Positions 28,325-35,986 of a stretch of 64,000 nt of DNA are shown here, one piece after another. Under the pieces are notes generated by a model. The model ran no database searches, was not told where the DNA came from, and saw nothing but the letters and a program-made list of their open reading frames with translations. Location: positions 10,160,501 through 10,224,500 of the forward strand of contig NZ_CP071091.1 of assembly GCF_017301635.1 (NCBI RefSeq), in the 5' to 3' direction. A program made the position numbers and the translations under genes. The stretch's first letter is position 1; the number at the start of each line of letters is the position of its first letter. Source of the DNA: Myxococcus landrumus. Lineage in GTDB: Bacteria > Myxococcota > Myxococcia > Myxococcales > Myxococcaceae.

Positions 28325-29758
28325 ATGTCGCGCGCGCACAGGTGTCCGCTGCTGGCTCTCGTTCTCTTCGTGGGGCTGTCGTGCGTGAGCGTTCCGGGTC
28401 CACGCCTCTCGAAGGACCCGGCCACGCTTCGCTACACCGTCACGTTCGTCCGTGAGCCCACGCGGGCGCTCGAGGTGGAGGTGGTGCTGGTGCGGGGCAC
28501 GCCGCGCGTGTTTCGCTTCACGTCACCGGGCGGCGTGGCGTCGGTGAGCGCCTATCGCGAGGATGGTGCGCACTTCGAGCTGCCGGTGACGGAGGGCCGC
28601 GTGGTCCTTCCCTCGGACATCCGCTTCCTGCGCTATCGCTATGACCTGGAAGCGCCGACGCGTTCACGCAGGCAGGGCTTGTTCGCGGGAATGGGGGAGG
28701 GGGACGCGTGGCATGTCGCGGGGCGCGCGTACCTCATTCGTCCCCATCAGACGCCGCCGGACCTGCGCGTGGAGTTGGCCGTGGAGGGCGCGGACGCACT
28801 GCTGCCCTGGCAACCGGATGAGACGGGCCTGTATCGGCTTCGCGCGGAGGACCTGGTGGATTCGGGCTTCCACGGCTTTGGTGGCCGCCGCTGCCAGGTG
28901 GTGTTGCCAGACGCGATGTTGGACGTGGCGGTGCTGGGCCACTTTCGTCAATTGGATGACACTCAGGTCTGTGGCTGGCTGAAGCAGGCCGCGGAGGAAG
29001 TGCTCACGGTACGCCGTACTTTCCCGTATCCGCGTATCACCGTGCGAGTCATTCCCGTGCCGGGACATGAAGGTCCCAGTCTCTTCGGCATGGTGCTCTG
29101 GAGCTCACCGCCCAGCATCTCCGTGCTCGTGGGGCAGGACGCGAGCGCCGCGTCTTTCGCGCGTGACTGGGTGGCACTTCACGAGATGCTTCACCTCGCG
29201 CACCCAGCCTTCCTGCCCCGCGTGCCTTGGTTGTCCGAGGGACTGGCCACCTACTACACGGAGGTCGCCCGCGTGCGCTCCGGCAGGCAGAGCGCTGAGC
29301 GGGGATGGGAGGAGTTGGTGGATGGCTTCGCGCGCGGCCGCCGCGTGGCGGGAGCCCGCACGATGGAAGAGGTTGTCTCCGGAAACGGTTTCTCGCCCGG
29401 CACGTACTGGACGGGAGCACTGCTCGCATTGCATCTCGATGTGGAAATACGCCGTGCTACTGGAAACCGTCGTCACCTGGAGGATGTGTTGGAGTTGCTC
29501 GCGGAGCGAGGACCGAGCTCGACGTTGGGAGCGTTTGGTGTCGCGGTGGATGCCGTCGCCGGACAGCCGCTCTTCGATGCATTGCTCGCACGTCACCTCA
29601 AGCGCGCGGCTTTTGTGGAGCAGGAAGGTCTGCTACAAGCGCTGGGCGTGACTGCGGAATCAGAAGGCATTCAATTCGTCCCTGCTCGTGACAGTTTGTT
29701 GCGCGAGGCGATGGAAAGTCGTGGATACATCCGCGAGTCACCCGGCATCCGTAGATGA
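28325..29758 (+). CDS. Gluzincin-like metallopeptidase lipoprotein
   Basis: 477 residues with a lipoprotein signal ending GLSC (lipid C20). Residues 30-240 form a beta-rich region of unknown type. The catalytic domain has HEMLH (286-290) and SEGLATYY with E305 about 18 residues later, the pattern of M1/M61-type zinc peptidases. It is likely anchored in a membrane facing the periplasm or the outside. The following RiPP precursor starts 83 bp downstream on the same strand, so joint transcription is possible. Confidence 0.8.
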   Translation: MSRAHRCPLLALVLFVGLSCVSVPGPRLSKDPATLRYTVTFVREPTRALEVEVVLVRGTPRVFRFTSPGGVASVSAYREDGAHFELPVTEGRVVLPSDIRFLRYRYDLEAPTRSRRQGLFAGMGEGDAWHVAGRAYLIRPHQTPPDLRVELAVEGADALLPWQPDETGLYRLRAEDLVDSGFHGFGGRRCQVVLPDAMLDVAVLGHFRQLDDTQVCGWLKQAAEEVLTVRRTFPYPRITVRVIPVPGHEGPSLFGMVLWSSPPSISVLVGQDASAASFARDWVALHEMLHLAHPAFLPRVPWLSEGLATYYTEVARVRSGRQSAERGWEELVDGFARGRRVAGARTMEEVVSGNGFSPGTYWTGALLALHLDVEIRRATGNRRHLEDVLELLAERGPSSTLGAFGVAVDAVAGQPLFDALLARHLKRAAFVEQEGLLQALGVTAESEGIQFVPARDSLLREAMESRGYIRESPGIRR

Positions 29759-29782
29759 GGTTCAAGGTCTCGAACCCCACGC

Positions 29783-29795
29783 GGTACGCGGTACC
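29783..29795. promoter_or_regulatory. GGTAC-GCG-GTACC palindrome before the RiPP precursor
   Basis: A perfect 5-bp inverted repeat with a 3-base centre, about 47 bp upstream of the precursor start in the 83-bp gap after the peptidase gene. It is a possible binding site for a regulator of the cluster; no more can be said from sequence. Confidence 0.3.
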
Positions 29796-29841
29796 AGCAA
29801 GTCGTTCCCCCTCAACGCAGTACCGAAAGGAAGCAAGCACC

Positions 29842-30114
29842 ATGAACGCGAAGGCTCTTGCGGCGATTGTCGGCACCCTGTCCCTGGCCTCCCTCGCCAC
29901 TGGCTGTGCCTCCACGAAGGCGGCGGAGGGCCAGCCGGCCGCCGCGGAGAAGGGCGCCGAGGGCAGCTGTGGCGCCGCGAAGACCGAGGAGAACAAGGGC
30001 GCCGAGGGCAGCTGCGGCGCGGCGAAGCAGGATGCGGCCGCCCCCGCGGCGACGCCGGAGAAGGGCGCTGAGCACTCCTGCGGCGCGGGTGGCTGCGGCG
30101 GTCAGAAGAAGTAA
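29842..30114 (+). CDS. EGSCG-repeat lipoprotein, probable MNIO substrate (HvfA/BufA-like RiPP precursor)
   Basis: 90 residues. The N-terminus ends in LATGC (lipid C22), then a low-complexity Ala/Lys/Glu chain carrying three repeats: KGAEGSCGAAK at about 37-47 (C43), the same at 52-62 (C58), and KGAEHSCGAGGCGGQKK (C80, C85). EGxCG repeats next to DUF692 and DUF2063 genes are the hallmark of HvfA and related copper-binding RiPPs, where the Cys become thiooxazole-type heterocycles. The lipobox means it would stay attached to a membrane, if cleaved by signal peptidase II. AAAGGAAG supports ATG 29842. Confidence 0.8.
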   Translation: MNAKALAAIVGTLSLASLATGCASTKAAEGQPAAAEKGAEGSCGAAKTEENKGAEGSCGAAKQDAAAPAATPEKGAEHSCGAGGCGGQKK

Positions 30115-30130
30115 TCAGGGACGTATCCAG

Positions 30131-30184
30131 GGCCGGTGACGTCGCCGGCCTCCTGGGCGGTGGGAAGAGGACCTCCCGCCGCCC
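30131..30184 (+). terminator. Two hairpins between precursor and MNIO genes
   Basis: GGCCGGTGACGTCGCCGGCC (30131-30150) is a near-perfect palindrome. GGGCGGTGGGAAG (30155 on) pairs with CTCCCGCCGCCC (30173-30184). Together they fill the 95-bp gap. In RiPP operons such partial terminators commonly give more precursor than enzyme mRNA; that role here is inference. Confidence 0.55.
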
Positions 30185-30209
30185 GGTTCATGAGGCTCCC
30201 TGGAGGTGC

Positions 30210-31064
30210 ATGGCCGTGGTGGTGACGTACGCGCGAAGACACGGACTGAAGTCGCTGGGCGTGGGCATTGGCTTGCGCAGGAGCTTCTACGAAGAGCTGC
30301 CCCGGACCGAGCGCGCGCTCGACTGGGTGGAGATCATCCCGGAGAACTTCCTCTCGCTGGGAGGCCGCTCTCACCGCGCCCTGGAGGCGTGCCGCGAGCG
30401 CTGGCCCGTGTTGCCGCACGGCGTGGGGTTGGACATCGGTGGGCCGGACGCGCTCGACCTGGACTACGTCACGGGGCTGGCCGCGCTGGTGAAGCACGTG
30501 GAGGCGCCGTTCTTCTCGGACCACCTCTGCTACTCACGGCTGGATGGCGTGTATCTGCATGACCTGTTGCCGCTGCCCTTCAGCGAGGCGGTGGTGGAGC
30601 ACGTCGTGCCTCGCGTGCGTGAGGTGATGGCCCGCGTGGGGCGCCCCTTCCTGCTGGAGAACCCGAGCTACTACGCGAACATGCCCGGGGGCACGTTGTC
30701 CGAAGCGGACTTCCTGCGGCACGTGGTGGAAGAGGCCGACTGCGGCCTGCTGCTCGACGTGAACAACGTCTACGTCAACGCGCGCAACCATGGCTACGAC
30801 GCGCGCGCCTTCGTGGATGCGCTGCCGCTGGAGCGCGTGGTGCAGATTCACCTCGCGGGCCACACGACATATCCGGACGTCATCATCGACACGCACGGCG
30901 ACCGCGTCTGCGACGACGTGTGGTCGCTGTATCGCTACGTGCTGGAGCGCACCGGGCCGGTGTCCACGCTCATCGAGTGGGACCAGGACATTCCGTCGAT
31001 GGCGGCGGTGCTGGACGAAGCGGACCTGGCTCGAAAGGTGCTGCGCGAAGGGGAGGGGCGATGA
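30210..31064 (+). CDS. DUF692 multinuclear iron oxidase (MNIO; HvfB/BufB/MbnB-like)
   Basis: 284 residues forming a TIM-barrel-type protein with the DUF692 ligand set: LPHGVGLDIGG (H70), FFSDHLCYS (D104, H105), LLENPSYY (E150), LLLDVNNVYVN (D183, N186), NHGYDA (H194), IHLAGH (H214, H218), DTHGD (H229) and LIEWDQDIP (E256). Family members use two or three iron ions to oxidise Cys residues in RiPP precursors. GGAGGT supports ATG 30210. The stop overlaps the DUF2063 start (ATGA), as in hvfBC and bufBC operons. Confidence 0.93.
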   Translation: MAVVVTYARRHGLKSLGVGIGLRRSFYEELPRTERALDWVEIIPENFLSLGGRSHRALEACRERWPVLPHGVGLDIGGPDALDLDYVTGLAALVKHVEAPFFSDHLCYSRLDGVYLHDLLPLPFSEAVVEHVVPRVREVMARVGRPFLLENPSYYANMPGGTLSEADFLRHVVEEADCGLLLDVNNVYVNARNHGYDARAFVDALPLERVVQIHLAGHTTYPDVIIDTHGDRVCDDVWSLYRYVLERTGPVSTLIEWDQDIPSMAAVLDEADLARKVLREGEGR

Positions 31065-31786
31065 AGCCCGTGCTCAAGCACTTCTTCGACAGCATGGGCG
31101 CATACCTCGCGAACCCCGGGCACACGTCGCTGGAGCGGCTGTACGCGGAGCACCCTGGATGGGCGGCGCCGTCGTCCCGCGTGTCGCTCTACGGCGACTT
31201 CGTGCGAGGGCATGTGCGAGGCACGCTCGAGAAGCTCTTCCCGTTGGTGCGTGGCGCGGTGGGGCCCGAGTCGTGGCGGTTGTTGATGGAGGACTACACG
31301 CGCACTCGGCCCGCGCGGCACCATGAGGTGAATCACCTGGGCGAGGGCTTTGCCTCGTTCATCGCGGACACCCCGCCGTCGCGCGGCCTCGCGCCGTTCA
31401 TTCCCGCGCTGGCGCGCTTCGAGTGGACGGACTTCGCGGTGTTCGCCTCGAAGGTGGAGTCACCGGAGCGGGTGGCGTCGCTGACGCCGAATCCGACGTT
31501 GGTGGTGCTGGAGCACTCCTTCCGCCTCTGCGCCTATGTGCGAGCCCGAGGCGCGGGCGCGCCGCCCGAGTCGGGTGAGGAGCTGGCGCTGGTGTGGCGG
31601 CACCCGGAGAGCCTGGCCTCGTACTACCTGGAGGCCACGCCCCACGCGCTGCTCGTGCTGAAGATGGCGGTGGAGGGGCTGTCGGCGGCGGAAGTCTCAG
31701 TGGCCACGGGAATGCCCGAGGCGGACATCCTGGACGCCGTGGCGCGGCTGTCTCGGGACGGCCTGGTGTTGGCGCCCCAAGGCTGA
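31061..31786 (+). CDS. DUF2063 partner protein (HvfC/BufC-like)
   Basis: 241 residues. The N-terminal half (MKPVLKHFFDSMGAYLANPG, YGDFVRGHVRGTLEKLFPLV, LGEGFASFI) is the DUF2063 domain; the C-terminal half is a small alpha/beta domain ending in a winged-helix-like stretch (GLSAAEVSVATGMPEADILD). In known systems this protein binds the precursor and is needed by the MNIO enzyme. It overlaps the MNIO gene by four bases and ends 6 bp from the convergent operon. A DoxX-type fourth gene (HvfD/BufD) is not found here. Confidence 0.9.
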   Translation: MKPVLKHFFDSMGAYLANPGHTSLERLYAEHPGWAAPSSRVSLYGDFVRGHVRGTLEKLFPLVRGAVGPESWRLLMEDYTRTRPARHHEVNHLGEGFASFIADTPPSRGLAPFIPALARFEWTDFAVFASKVESPERVASLTPNPTLVVLEHSFRLCAYVRARGAGAPPESGEELALVWRHPESLASYYLEATPHALLVLKMAVEGLSAAEVSVATGMPEADILDAVARLSRDGLVLAPQG

Positions 31787-31792
31787 CCGCGT

Positions 31793-32899
31793 CTACCGGG
31801 TGAGCACCGAGCACACCCGCCCGAAGCGGGTGTCCTGGCAATGAGACACGTCCGGGCACTCCAGGTCCTCGGTGCAGGGCACCGTGCAGTGGCCCTCCAC
31901 GCAGATGCCCTTGGCCAGGCCCAGCTTCTGGCAGCGCGCGTCGTCCGCGCACTCATCGCCCAAGCGCTCCAGCGCGTCACAGCCCACGAAGCGCGAGGGG
32001 TCCGGCAGGCAGCGGCCCTTCTGGCAGGTGAAGCCCGCCTCGCAGCGGTTCGCCGCGAAGTCCTGCTCGTCCTCGTTCACGGCCTCCGTGCACTCCTTCA
32101 CGCAGACCGAGCTTCCGTTGGAGAAGGGTTGGCAGGTGGAGCCCTTGTCACAGCTTCCGTCATTCCCACAGGCGCCGCAACTGGGGCCCGCCGCGCCGCA
32201 GCGGAAGCCCTTGCACATCATCCCTTCGCCGCACTGCCCATCCTGCACGCACTCCACGCACCGGCCACCGGGAGCGCACACCAGTCCGTCCGCGCAGCCC
32301 GTCAGGCCGCAGCGGTTGACGATTCCCGAGTTGGGCACCAGCTCGAGCTTGAGCTCCTTCTTCTCGCCGGCCCCGACACACGCCTCGGTCGTCACGAGGG
32401 GGAAGCCCGCGCCAGTGAGCGTCAGCGCATAGCAGCCGTCCGGCAGCGGCCCCACGCGCAGGCGGCCCGCGCCATCCAGGATGAGCCGGTCGAAGGGCGT
32501 GTCGCGCACGAACACCTGCACGCCCGCGACGCGCTCACCGTGAGTCGCTTTCACGCGCATCTCGAAGAAGCCCGCGTTGCGAGCCTCCACGCGAGGCACG
32601 TCCACCGCCTTGCCACCGGAGACCTTCACCGCCACGCGCGCGGCCTTCTCCGAGGTGGCGACGATGAAGAGCTCCGCGGCGCCGGTGGGGACGTCCTCCA
32701 GCTTGAAGCGGCCCGTGGCATCCACCGTGGTGCGCACCTCGGGGTCTCCCACCAGGGCGACCATGGCCACCGCCGGGTCGAACTCCGTGAGCTGTCCCTG
32801 GATGGTGCCCACGCGCAAGGGGGCGTTCTCCAGGTTGCCACACGCCCCTGTGCACAGGATGAGGGCGGCACCCAACATGAAGTGAACTCTCGAGTGCAT
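31793..32899 (-). CDS. Cys-rich lipoprotein, last gene of the sigma/caspase operon
   Basis: 368 residues. Lipoprotein signal with a Cys after LCTGA. Residues about 25-110 and 110-190 are two beta-sandwich, carboxypeptidase-regulatory-like domains (GTIQGQLTEFDPAVAMVALV, MRVKATHGERVAGVQVFV). The last 170 residues hold some 28 Cys in short disulfide-type repeats (ADGLVCAPGGRCVECVQDGQ, DGSCDKGSTC), similar to the Cys-rich modules of myxobacterial surface proteins. The ATG overlaps the caspase stop (ATGA). It looks like a cell-surface receptor or ligand. Confidence 0.8.
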   Translation of the reverse strand: MHSRVHFMLGAALILCTGACGNLENAPLRVGTIQGQLTEFDPAVAMVALVGDPEVRTTVDATGRFKLEDVPTGAAELFIVATSEKAARVAVKVSGGKAVDVPRVEARNAGFFEMRVKATHGERVAGVQVFVRDTPFDRLILDGAGRLRVGPLPDGCYALTLTGAGFPLVTTEACVGAGEKKELKLELVPNSGIVNRCGLTGCADGLVCAPGGRCVECVQDGQCGEGMMCKGFRCGAAGPSCGACGNDGSCDKGSTCQPFSNGSSVCVKECTEAVNEDEQDFAANRCEAGFTCQKGRCLPDPSRFVGCDALERLGDECADDARCQKLGLAKGICVEGHCTVPCTEDLECPDVSHCQDTRFGRVCSVLTR

Positions 32900-34551
32900 C
32901 AGAACCGGTACCCCACACCGGCCCAGGCGCCGGTGAATCCCACGGCCTGTCCTTCCCCGTCCACGACCACGTACGTGAGCATGAGCTGCGCCTGCGTCAT
33001 CAACTCCAACCGCTCACCCATGCGCAGCACCACGCCTCCGACCACCCCGGGGCTGACCGTGAAGAAGCTCTGGCCACCGGCGGATGTCTCCACATCAAAG
33101 GACCGCCCCAGATACAGGGCGGCCACACGCGGTCCCGCGAATAGCGACAAGCGCTCCCATCGCCACAGGTAGGGCAGCGCCACCCCCGCGGAGAAGGTGG
33201 TGTAGCGGAAAGGCACCTCGTCCTCGGGTTGGAGCATGAGGGCACGCCTGCCCGTACTGAAGCTCACATCGAACAGCAGCCCGAAGTCGCGCAGCGGCCG
33301 GTCCTCCAGCCGCAAGGAGATGGCGAGCTCGGGGGCCATGGGCAGCAGCTCGGAGCGGCTGCGCGCGTCGACGAAGGTGAACATGCCTCCGAGCAGGGAC
33401 AGCGAGCGCCGGGGGAACGCCTCGGCCAGCAGGTGCTCCAGGGGGAGCCGCTCGCCCAGGTCCACCTCCACCTCGCGGCGCACCAGCACCGCGCCGCCCT
33501 TGGTCAGCTCCACCGTGCGTTTGCCGGGCACCACCGCCGCGCCGCCGGGCAGCTCCGCGCGAGGCTCTCCATCCACCTTGAGCGTGAAGCCATCCAGCCG
33601 AGGGTTGTAGGAGAACAGCTCCGGCCGGCCCGTGCGAGAGATGCTGCCCGACAGCACCACGGGGTCCGCGCCCACTTCCATGATTTCCGCCGAGGGCCGC
33701 TGGCGTCCTTCCGTGAAGGCGAAGGTGCGGCGGCGCGCGTAGTCGTGGGCCTCCGTCGCGGTGACGGCGCCGTCCGCGTTGCGGTCCGCGCCACCGCCAA
33801 GTCCCTCGATGAGGAAGTGCGTGTAGATGTCGTTGCGGAGGCTCTCGTCCTCGCGCGCCGTCTCGCCCCAGTCACAGGCGGCGAACACCATGGAGGCGCG
33901 CGACGACTCCTCCAGCGGCCGGGCGTAGAAGCCCGACTTGATGCCGTTCAGCTCCTTCTCCAGCTCCTTGGGCAGCAGCGACTTGCCGTTGCCGCTGTGA
34001 CAGGACGCGAGCACCAGGAGCCGCCGCCGGCTGGGGAGCGAATCGAACTCCGCCTTGAGCGCGTCCATGGCGAGTGCCGTCTGGGCCACGGCCCGGTAGG
34101 ACGCGTCGCGTGTCACCAGGTAGCGGCGCAGCTCACCCGCGGCGTCGCGAGCCAGGGTGCCGTGCGCGGAGAAGTAGACGACCACCACGTCGTCCGGACG
34201 GTGGGCCTCCTTGCGCAGCTGCCGGAGCGCCTGGAGGATGGCGGCGCGCGTCGTCTCTTCCGGGCGCGTGAGGACGCGCACCTGGTCGAAGCCTCCGCGC
34301 GCCGGGTCCAGCATGGCCGCCGCCAGGTCCGTGGCGTCCTTGGCCGGGTAGCGCAGACCGCGCCAGTGGGGGTCGTCGAACTCGGAGATGCCCACCAGCA
34401 GCGCCATGCGCCGGGGCGTGTACGCGCTGGACAGCGCCTCCTCGTCGAGCCGAAGAGGCACGAGCCCTCCCTTCTCCGTTCCAGGAGACGAAGAGGTCGC
34501 GCAGGCCGTCAGCGCCGCCAACAGGATGGGAAGGAGAGTCCTCACGCTCAC
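32899..34551 (-). CDS. Caspase-like (C14) lipoprotein with EF-hand loop and barrel-like C-terminus
   Basis: 550 residues. Lipobox LTAC (lipid C17). The peptidase domain (about 48-290) shows MALLVGISEFDD, catalytic H130 in YFSAHGTL and C184 in LASCHSGNGK. DRNADGAVTATE (256-267) fits a calcium-binding EF-hand loop, as in many bacterial caspases. After a PEGA-like beta segment, the last 170 residues alternate like an outer-membrane barrel and end GYRF. Start codons TTG, GTG and GTG lie close together at 34554-34545; GTG 34551 is chosen. It is the third gene of the sigma operon, so sigma and anti-sigma factor may control or be controlled by it. Confidence 0.85.
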   Translation of the reverse strand: MSVRTLLPILLAALTACATSSSPGTEKGGLVPLRLDEEALSSAYTPRRMALLVGISEFDDPHWRGLRYPAKDATDLAAAMLDPARGGFDQVRVLTRPEETTRAAILQALRQLRKEAHRPDDVVVVYFSAHGTLARDAAGELRRYLVTRDASYRAVAQTALAMDALKAEFDSLPSRRRLLVLASCHSGNGKSLLPKELEKELNGIKSGFYARPLEESSRASMVFAACDWGETAREDESLRNDIYTHFLIEGLGGGADRNADGAVTATEAHDYARRRTFAFTEGRQRPSAEIMEVGADPVVLSGSISRTGRPELFSYNPRLDGFTLKVDGEPRAELPGGAAVVPGKRTVELTKGGAVLVRREVEVDLGERLPLEHLLAEAFPRRSLSLLGGMFTFVDARSRSELLPMAPELAISLRLEDRPLRDFGLLFDVSFSTGRRALMLQPEDEVPFRYTTFSAGVALPYLWRWERLSLFAGPRVAALYLGRSFDVETSAGGQSFFTVSPGVVGGVVLRMGERLELMTQAQLMLTYVVVDGEGQAVGFTGAWAGVGYRF

Positions 34552-34555
34552 CAAG

Positions 34556-35368
34556 TCAGGGGAGATTGTCGCCGCTTCTCACTCGCACGTCGAACCGGGT
34601 GATGGCCAGTGTGCCTTGTTCCCAGCGCTCACCTTCTCCCACCAGCACTTGCTTCACCTCCTCGGGAGAGGGCTCCAGGCCGGAGGGGGTGGCCGCCAGC
34701 CACAGCGTCAGCGGCCCGGACTCCCCTTCGAGGCTGACCCCCGAGAGTCCTTGAGGGCCCTGCAGGTCATGGGTCCCCGCCTCCAGCGCGAACTGTCCCA
34801 ACAGCTCGGGCGCTTGTTCGGCGCGCTGCTGGAAGAGCAGGGCGGTGCCGGCCTCGGTGGCGTGGTAGCGCAAGAGGAGCACGTCGCGGGTATCCACCAC
34901 CGTGTCCGGGTCCAGCCTGCGCAACCTTCCGTCCGCGCCGCGCGCCACCACCGCGAGCTCCAGCGCGATGCGGCCCACCTGGCCCTTCACGCCGGGGGCG
35001 GTGGACTCGGTGCCCAGGTCCACGGCCGCGTCGGGCTTCCGCAGCCGGGGCACCACCACCACCGCCAGCAGCGCCGCGGCGACCGCGCCCGTGATGAGGC
35101 CCCATCGCCGTGCATCCGGTGGCGGTCCCTTGAGCTGCCTGCGCACCCGCGCGAAGCCCACCTCGTCCAGGCGCGGCTCGGAGGGTGGGGGAGCCAGGGA
35201 GAGCAGCGCGGCGTCGGTGTGTCCGTCCAGGAGGTCGGGGCCGGAGTGGGCGGCGAGGAAGAGCTCACACACCTCACACGCGGTGGCCAGGTGCTCGCGG
35301 AAGTACGCCTCCGCCTCTGGCTCACGACGGGCAAGGGCGCTGAGCGCCTCGTCATCCAGGTGTCTCAT
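34556..35368 (-). CDS. Anti-sigma factor with zinc-binding N-terminus and one membrane span
   Basis: 270 residues. The N-terminal segment EHLATACEVC supplies a His-x4-Cys-x2-Cys zinc motif (H26, C31, C34) of the ZAS anti-sigma type. One transmembrane segment (about 89-107, GLITGAVAAALLAVVVVP) separates it from a beta-rich extracytoplasmic domain of about 160 residues. It lies 6 bp after the ECF sigma gene and 1-4 bp before the caspase start. Predicted to hold the sigma factor at the membrane until a periplasmic signal, possibly proteolysis, releases it. Confidence 0.85.
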   Translation of the reverse strand: MRHLDDEALSALARREPEAEAYFREHLATACEVCELFLAAHSGPDLLDGHTDAALLSLAPPPSEPRLDEVGFARVRRQLKGPPPDARRWGLITGAVAAALLAVVVVPRLRKPDAAVDLGTESTAPGVKGQVGRIALELAVVARGADGRLRRLDPDTVVDTRDVLLLRYHATEAGTALLFQQRAEQAPELLGQFALEAGTHDLQGPQGLSGVSLEGESGPLTLWLAATPSGLEPSPEEVKQVLVGEGERWEQGTLAITRFDVRVRSGDNLP

Positions 35369-35374
35369 GACCTC

Positions 35375-35986
35375 TCACTCCCACCGACCTGCGAGCACTC
35401 GCCGAAGCAACTCTCTTTTGATACGACCCCGGAAGCGCTCGAGTCTCATCGTGACGGCGCTTTTCCCAACGCCCAACCGCTCGGCAATCTCACGGGCCGA
35501 CAGCTCTCCTTCGATGTAGAAGAGCTGGACTGTTCGCTTCTCTTCGCCCTCGGGGAGCTCGTCGATGAGCTGGCGGACGGCATCGATGTCGCGCTCGAGC
35601 TGAAGCGCCTCGGGGATGGCGGGGACGCTCTCCGGCTCGGGGTCCGCGATGTCGTCCTCCAGGCGCCGTAGGTTCGCCTTTCGCTCCAGCCGGGTCCTCG
35701 CCCGATTCCGGGCGATGGATAACAACCAGGCCTCGAATGCCGCTGCTTCTTTCAAGCGCGGCAGGGCGCGAAACGCCCGGACGAAGGTCTCCTGGATGAC
35801 GTCCTCCACCTCGTCGGAGTCCAGGGGCGCGAACCCCGCCATCAACCTCGCCACCTGTGGACGCGTGCGCCGGTACAGCTCACTGAAGGCAGAGGTCTCC
35901 CCACTCGCCGCGCGCCGCACCCACTCCGCCAGTCCCTCCGTGGAACCCACCTGTCCTCCAGACCCCCGGACCCGGCCGGTGGCCAC
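35375..35986 (-). CDS. ECF sigma factor
   Basis: 203 residues with sigma-70 region 2 ([39 protein letters not shown]) and region 4 ([40 protein letters not shown]). GTG 35986 is a possible start; a GTG five codons later is also possible. It heads a four-gene operon with an anti-sigma factor, a caspase-like lipoprotein and a Cys-rich lipoprotein. No clear ECF promoter could be fixed in the 132 bp before it. Confidence 0.93.

Follow-up and report, generated by a model that had tools for sequence, protein, structure and literature searches.

A stretch of 64,000 nucleotides of the Myxococcus landrumus genome (contig NZ_CP071091.1, at 10.16-10.22 Mb of 10.37 Mb), to which we refer as the window, carries an operon of four minus-strand genes at 31793-35986 that encode an extracytoplasmic function (ECF) sigma factor, a membrane anti-sigma factor, an exported homologue of the caspases known from human cell death, and a lipoprotein. 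We propose that the caspase is probably the dedicated site-1 protease of this anti-sigma factor, which it would cut at a Lys-Gly or Arg-Gly (K/R-Gly) dipeptide in a periplasmic linker and thereby free the sigma factor. The proposal was drawn from comparative sequence analysis, and its main supports are that sigma, anti-sigma and caspase genes recur together as modules, that the dipeptide is fixed in the linker of the module anti-sigma factors, and that Lys-Gly is absent from comparable proteins encoded apart from a caspase.

The operon and its inheritance

The four genes are tightly packed: 6 bp separate the sigma and anti-sigma genes, 1 bp lies between the anti-sigma gene and the TTG start of the caspase gene, and the caspase and lipoprotein genes share one base in a TGATG overlap. 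An earlier note on this DNA had described a four-gene operon whose members overlap or lie no more than 6 bp apart, and that description holds in full at the same place. The Pfam matches in the operon are to Sigma70_r2 (7e-15), Peptidase_C14 (2e-15) and CarboxypepD_reg (7e-11). The features on which the argument draws are as follows.

35375..35986, minus strand: ECF sigma factor of 203 amino acids with a GTG start (Sigma70_r2 7.3e-15, TIGR02937 4e-24), present in 21/21 uncut orthologous loci.
34556..35368, minus strand: membrane anti-sigma factor of 270 amino acids, predicted from an AlphaFold2 (AF2) model and from orthologues to consist of a zinc domain, one transmembrane (TM) helix and a periplasmic Ig-like domain.
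35267..35293, minus strand: zinc ligands H26, C31 and C34 (with H3 at 35360-35362), among the six most conserved columns in 44 module anti-sigma factors.
35042..35113, minus strand: predicted TM helix of the anti-sigma factor, residues 86-109 (AF2 model).
34982..34987, minus strand: K128-G129 in the periplasmic linker, the predicted caspase cleavage site (GxKG in 25/25 orthologues).
34577..34963, minus strand: predicted periplasmic Ig-like, DUF4384-related domain of the anti-sigma factor, residues 136-264 (AF2, VIA).
32899..34554, minus strand: exported caspase lipoprotein, 551 amino acids from TTG, with GTG 34545 as the likelier start (PF00656 2.2e-15).
34501..34503, minus strand: lipobox Cys18 of the caspase (LTAC), invariant in 20 aligned orthologues.
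34162..34164, minus strand: catalytic His131 of the caspase (47/47 homologues; invariant in the 27-caspase alignment).
34000..34002, minus strand: catalytic Cys185 of the caspase (47/47 homologues; invariant in the 27-caspase alignment).
33751..33786, minus strand: EF-hand-like loop of the caspase, residues 257-268, with D257, N259, D261, G262 and E268 invariant in 20 orthologues.
32902..33411, minus strand: C-terminal region of the caspase, eight strands, a possible outer-membrane barrel (low-confidence AF2 model).
31793..32899, minus strand: lipoprotein with a CarboxypepD_reg-like domain and a Cys-rich tail (PF13620 6.6e-11), matched in 24/24 orthologous loci.

A scan with one genome per species returned 24 orthologous loci. 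Anti-sigma, caspase and lipoprotein genes are kept in all 24 of them and the sigma gene in 21, the other three loci ending at a contig edge before it is reached; gene order is the same throughout. Four loci with long flanking sequence (L030-L032 and L036) gave no match to any gene that flanks the operon in the window, yet they have the operon intact, from which it follows that it travels as a unit. The earlier note had named gene order as one check to be made and loss of co-inheritance as an outcome that would speak against it, and on both counts its direct coupling of an exported caspase to a sigma/anti-sigma pair is borne out, by the modules described below as well as by the orthologues. One of the orthologous loci (L026) stands in a record titled Comamonas sp. 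and is a typical Myxococcus locus; the record is probably mislabelled. A promoter comparison upstream of the sigma gene was rejected, the conserved blocks there being inseparable from the leader of the divergent serC.

Recurrence of the module in Myxococcota

The M. landrumus genome has 10 matches to PF00656, 58 to Sigma70_r2, and seven sigma/anti-sigma/caspase modules. Besides the window operon these are a second complete four-gene operon at 8.886 Mb (L016), whose products are 56, 38, 52 and 38% identical to those of the window, the last value being taken over the first half of the lipoprotein; four loci in which ECF sigma, TM anti-sigma and caspase lie in overlapping or adjoining frames (L012, L013, L015 and L017); and a seventh module at 4.927-4.935 Mb (L162), the caspase of which has no PF00656 match but keeps the GHG and DSC motifs. 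In L014 an anti-sigma factor accompanies the caspase, and no neighbouring sigma profile match was found; neither sigma nor anti-sigma was found adjoining L018 or the tandem caspase pair in L011. The chance of finding 7 of 11 caspases in modules is about 2e-13 for an assumed total of 8,500 genes. The L162 module has an Arg-Gly linker, its divergent caspase lacks a clear barrel and gives weak EF-hand model matches, and a transposase-like gene (by eye) adjoins it.

PF00656 is present in 46/58 genomes of the Myxococcota, which are predatory soil bacteria. We sampled the first 60 caspase matches outside the window's family, taken best E-values first and not at random, from 23 genomes. An ECF sigma factor and a TM protein lie upstream on the same strand in 37 of these, which come from 18 genomes, whereas 18 are without such neighbours and 5 are cut. 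A module was scored when a same-strand ECF-profile match ended 0.3-1.8 kb before the caspase match, and for the protein between the two we chose the frame with the best combination of overlap and hydrophobicity, which means that the presence of a TM segment is partly selected. An anti-sigma-profile match falls between sigma and caspase in 34/37 modules; L052 and L057 are without one, and in L068 it occurs only in a long frame with a wrong start. Within the window's own family, 11 hand-picked loci comprise 8 with sigma and anti-sigma, one that is cut (L172) and two with a caspase only (L166 and L167).

The core unit is the set of three genes encoding sigma, anti-sigma and caspase, and the four-gene form goes with the sublineage whose caspase has Ala, not Asp, two residues before the catalytic Cys. 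Three-gene modules elsewhere in Myxococcota extend the system beyond both the four-gene composition and the window's family. Among the sampled loci that do not score as modules, L099 (2-4961) has an FG-GAP-like lipoprotein gene (by eye) between a KG anti-sigma factor and the caspase. Two caspases with no sigma match, L065 and L101, are preceded respectively by a protein that is DUF4384-like by eye, with no Pfam match, and by a Cys-rich lipoprotein-like protein.

A fixed dipeptide in the anti-sigma linker

Forty-five module anti-sigma factors were compared, 37 of them sampled and 8 from the M. landrumus genome, one of which (L014) is without a sigma factor; the alignments comprised 20/25 orthologues, 27 module caspases and 41/45 module anti-sigma factors, those with clean starts. 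GxKG occurs in 25/25 orthologues of the window anti-sigma factor, and KG in 8/8 of the hand-picked further modules from the window's family, which are in part its orthologues. Across 44 module anti-sigma factors the best conserved of 249 columns are W89, C31, K128, C34, H26 and G129. Position 129 is Gly in 44/44, position 128 is Lys in 40/44, and Arg stands two residues before in 30; among the exceptions, L052 has its Lys-Gly two residues earlier and L017 has Arg-Gly. In the 41 aligned proteins only Met1 and G129 are invariant, at a mean column identity of 21%. By position, Lys-Gly falls in the first 45 residues beyond the TM helix in 41/44, in the following 45 residues in 4/44 and in the 45 residues before the helix in 7/44. 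When L162 is included, Lys-Gly is found in 41/45 and Arg-Gly in 2/45 (L017 and L162), such that 43/45 have K/R-Gly at the site. This candidate cleavage site adds to the earlier note, which had none.

As controls we used zf-HC2 membrane proteins without a caspase nearby, namely 59 zf-HC2 loci less 15 without a TM helix and 3 with a caspase (L126, L127 and L129). Lys-Gly is found in 0/41 of them. An ECF match accompanies 35 of the 41, and 32 also have a TM helix no more than 130 residues from the zinc finger; in this stricter set Lys-Gly is likewise absent (0/32). The controls include close orthologues, and one (L107) has a linker of a single residue. The proteins were for the former reason clustered at 40% identity, after which Lys-Gly occurs in 36/40 modules and 0/18 controls (Fisher 1.6e-11, the remaining phylogeny being ignored).

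A second comparison is afforded by proteins with the DUF4384 domain, a sample that overlaps with that of the modules. Eighteen are of the anti-sigma type (ECF match and TM helix), and KG is present in all 14 that have a caspase in the locus. For the other four (L204-L207), no caspase match was found in wider stretches of 5.5-6.5 kb; in two of these, L206 and L207, which share the architecture, the linker is without K/R-Gly, as the cleavage idea predicts. Among DUF4384 proteins that are not of the anti-sigma type, 11/12 are without KG, and the twelfth (L182) was read in a wrong frame.

The caspase

The protease matches PF00656 (2.2e-15) better than CHAT (4e-6). Its His/Cys dyad, H131/C185, is kept in 47/47 caspases, of which 37 are from sampled modules and 10 from the genome, not all of the latter modular, and the catalytic residues to which the earlier note had tied its reading are conserved in this sense. 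Its H130, C184 and loop from 256 are H131, C185 and 257 when counted from TTG as here, the earlier numbering having begun at the next codon; since the displayed orthologues start M-R/K-x-L, the true start is probably GTG 34545. In the 27 aligned module caspases only L67, H131, C185, E235 and G344 are invariant. In 37/47 caspases Asp, the mark of a basic S1 pocket, precedes the catalytic Cys by two residues. The solved relatives of the caspase family profile are metacaspases 4, 1 and 9 and the uncharacterised GSU0716 (8 distinct PDB sequences). In the excerpts from which we cite the literature here and below, metacaspases are credited with cleavage after Arg or Lys (PMC8283722), and orthocaspases are given as specific for basic residues, a statement that the source calls speculative (PMC8283722), or as cutting after positively charged residues (PMC6426788). 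By analogy with these enzymes, the dipeptide fixed in the linker is of the kind that the metacaspase family cuts. One module caspase, L066 (1583-3945), whose linker reads Trp-Met-Gly, has the active-site loop CQTT instead of CxSG, possibly a matched change.

Many module caspases begin with a hydrophobic export signal, that of the window being a lipoprotein signal; a crude lipobox pattern, found in 6/47 caspases, was discarded as unreliable, the start codons being uncertain and L057 probably missed. The earlier note had placed the caspase on the outer surface, whereas the linker that would be its substrate is predicted to be periplasmic; to reach it, the catalytic domain should lie on the periplasmic side. 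Calcium dependence, also put forward there, is not supported as a core feature: the EF-type loop, which may bind calcium, is kept in orthologues and is degenerate in several modules, e.g. L075, L081, L083 and L093. The AF2 model of the caspase, built from 20 close orthologues, is poor (pLDDT 52) and unfit for detail. In it the C-terminal 170 residues form eight strands, with weak Foldseek matches to Ail and OmpA, and OMP_b-brl is matched in 1/27 relatives, so that this end of the protein may be an outer-membrane barrel. The four operon proteins gave no match to EACC2 or TRADD-N models in libraries whose content of such models is unchecked; the EACC1-associated caspase model was matched below its cut-off (102 of 140 bits).

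The anti-sigma factor

The window anti-sigma factor has no Pfam or NCBIfam match at E<=1, and hence matches neither zf-HC2 nor DUF4384 in Pfam at that threshold, while among module anti-sigma factors at E<=0.1 these two are found in 19/41 and 21/41, respectively (best DUF4384 match 1.8e-10). Its AF2 model has four helices in residues 6-58, the TM helix at 86-109 and a beta domain at 136-264, with a low-confidence stretch between the last two; pLDDT block means are 82-94 for residues 131-240 and 72-86 after, and about 40 for linker residues 111-130, which lie outside the folded domain. The best VIA matches of the beta domain are to a GbpA domain (Z 9.1, rmsd 2.5, 96 aligned) and to the Ig-like AGS-C domain (Z 8.8, rmsd 3.0, 101 aligned), and Foldseek of the model gave nothing at E<=0.001. 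On these models the protein is predicted to cross the membrane once and to end in a domain of the common Ig-like arrangement, for which we claim no specific relative.

The zinc motif of the window lineage, H26-x4-C31-x2-C34 together with H3, is kept in all orthologues that reach that far and is one residue longer than the usual HxxxCxxC. As it lies in an N-terminal helical domain, the window lineage would be placed with the class I zinc-type (ZAS) anti-sigma factors. Zinc as a universal feature of the module anti-sigma factors was rejected, each Cys being kept in 33/44 and missing in 11/44. In cyanobacteria DUF4384 is described as accessory to the caspase domain of 19 true and 4 pseudo-orthocaspases (PMC8283722), which makes the periplasmic domain of the anti-sigma factor a natural caspase-facing domain.

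A model of sigma release and its alternatives

In the model that we propose, the cytoplasmic zinc domain of the anti-sigma factor would hold the ECF sigma factor, an inhibition suggested by adjacency and architecture; a single helix would cross the inner membrane, and the Ig-like, DUF4384-related domain would be periplasmic. The exported caspase, in this operon a lipoprotein whose C-terminal part may be an outer-membrane barrel, would present its catalytic domain to the same compartment. Upon an envelope signal it would make the site-1 cut between Lys128 and Gly129, in the flexible linker on the periplasmic side of the membrane, whereupon the usual intramembrane and cytoplasmic proteases would degrade the remaining stub, following known anti-sigma degradation, and the sigma factor would be freed to act on its presumed regulon. 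The wider form of the proposal, in which the exported caspases of Myxococcota would form a large family of paralogues linked to the outer membrane, each the site-1 protease that cuts its own anti-sigma factor at K/R-Gly near the inner membrane and thereby turns an envelope event into transcription, seems to us evenly poised between right and wrong.

Several observations weigh against this model. First, two modules are without K/R-Gly at the site (L056 with Lys-Ala-Ala-Gly and L066), and a plain search for K/R-G in the 45-residue window matches 7/41 controls by chance, just as the 44/45 modules that it counts include a chance R-G in L066. Second, L204 and L205 have a KG linker, yet no caspase was found adjoining; it is possible that they use a caspase encoded elsewhere, acting in trans, or are decayed modules that have lost theirs. 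Third, the dyad is also kept in all 18 sampled caspases that were scored without a module, so its conservation is not module-specific; moreover, 10/47 caspases, those of the window lineage included, have Ala in place of the Asp two residues before the Cys. Fourth, the quality of the caspase model leaves the barrel and its orientation weakly supported. Finally, many members have KG just a few residues ahead of where the Ig-like domain starts its first strand, and it may have a structural role there.

This last point, with the persistence of KG in L204 and L205, could mean that the dipeptide merely caps the first strand, that another protease cuts the anti-sigma factor and that the caspase gene, transcribed with the sigma gene, is a mere output of the sigma factor. 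Against such a cap, K/R-Gly is missing in L206 and L207 and KG in 11/12 DUF4384 proteins that are not of the anti-sigma type, and G129 is the sole invariant column besides Met1 in so divergent a set. We regard it as rather unlikely.

The same conservation would also fit if the K-G loop were a pseudo-substrate by which the periplasmic part of the anti-sigma factor holds the caspase inactive, with the caspase as the effector (e.g. in lysis or surface shedding) and sigma release as a side effect that replenishes the operon. A linker next to the membrane is, however, where a site-1 cut usually falls, and the low confidence of the model in this linker is what disorder would give. The orthocaspases with DUF4384 (PMC8283722) count in favour of the bait, in that they would make this domain a habitual caspase partner. 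All told, we consider a bait of this kind unlikely.

It is also conceivable that a different site-1 protease recognises K/R-G while the caspase acts elsewhere, as genomes hold many periplasmic proteases; the complete absence of Lys-Gly from the 41 controls argues for a dedicated enzyme, and the linked caspase belongs to a family described as specific for Arg or Lys, which renders this very unlikely. That the genes adjoin without any functional link, as the 18/60 unaccompanied caspases might suggest, is scarcely credible in the face of seven modules in one genome, 37/60 elsewhere, overlapping or adjoining genes and an operon that is kept where its flanks differ.

The substrates of bacterial caspase homologues have long been an open question, and for dozens of modules comparative sequence alone now allows us to predict a substrate and even the bond that would be cut. 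If the model is true, it would link the caspase fold to envelope sensing, bring a new class of site-1 protease into the control of sigma factors, and provide several insulated channels per cell, in convergence with the CRISPR-triggered Csx29/Csx30 pathway. We know of no earlier periplasmic caspase signalling system.

Relation to known systems

Regulated intramembrane proteolysis is known from RseA and similar anti-sigma factors; DegS, which acts in the RseA system, is a serine protease. The RseA/DegS/RseP system (mentioned in PMC10028731) resembles the proposed one in its membrane anti-sigma factor, its periplasmic domain and a site-1 cut outside the membrane, and differs from it in that here a clan CD caspase is encoded in the same operon and the linker has a fixed K/R-Gly. 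The type III-E CRISPR system comes closest in its mechanism: Csx29, a TPR-CHAT protease of the caspase fold, cleaves Csx30, which inhibits an ECF sigma factor (PMC10028731). In both cases a caspase-fold Cys protease, an inhibitor and an ECF sigma factor (there CASP-sigma) are encoded together, and relief of inhibition is the model of the authors of that study (PMC10028731). Csx29 is triggered by target RNA through Cas7-11 and makes its cut in a C-terminal domain loop of Csx30, between residues 427 and 429, and the excerpted text does not describe Csx30 as having the character of a membrane zinc anti-sigma factor (PMC10028731). The operon's protease, in contrast, has an export signal, and the four genes include no CRISPR component.

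Caspases also adjoin ECF sigma factors in proposed signalling chains of the EACC2-caspase neighbourhoods, which include a DUF1822 TPR gene (Kaur et al. 2021, PMC8195603); the excerpts of that paper use none of the terms anti-sigma, outer membrane, beta-barrel and DUF4384 (PMC8195603). ECF54 likewise is an ECF sigma factor with a caspase-like neighbour, its neighbours being CHAT, subtilase and carboxypeptidase proteins and its named member, in the excerpted text, coming from Geodermatophilus (PMC8999054). In cell-surface signalling, the sigma and anti-sigma factors act together with a partner in the outer membrane, as may be the case here, but that partner is a receptor and not a protease (PMC5411451). 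Among the papers listed in our search of the open-licence literature, whose coverage leaves out the main ECF re-classification, none deals, as judged by title, opening of the abstract or excerpts, with an exported caspase that accompanies sigma and anti-sigma factors. As proposed, the system is of a known kind, the protease-released ECF sigma factor, and stands out by its unusual protease, its predicted bond and its several paralogous channels per cell.

The fourth gene and the neighbouring cluster

The lipoprotein encoded by the last gene has 30 Cys, in keeping with the many that the earlier note had ascribed to it. Six Corallococcus/Archangium orthologues (L030-L033, L035 and L037) have only 7-14 and the others 21-33, and the profile is found in only some modules elsewhere (L016, L052, L068, L080 and, at a cut edge, L063, all in the sublineage with Ala before the catalytic Cys; weakly in L089 and L098), counts that are affected by the short sequence examined downstream of other caspases. 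This variation argues against an essential part for the Cys-rich lipoprotein, which is probably an accessory sensor or modulator. In L027 (9610-10689) an in-frame stop precedes its Cys-rich part, through either a sequencing error or decay.

Convergent with the operon, on the plus strand at 29755-31786, lies a cluster encoding a MbnB/TglH/ChrH enzyme (PF05114, 9e-103) and its DUF2063 partner, which appears to be of the bufferin-type modified-peptide kind. In eight of the loci (L023, L024, L026, L028, L033, L037, L041 and L042) about 2.6-4.6 kb of extra DNA separates the lipoprotein match from the DUF2063 gene. Just upstream of the MbnB/TglH/ChrH enzyme is a small protein of 119 amino acids with no Pfam match, a signal-like start and repeated SCGA motifs.

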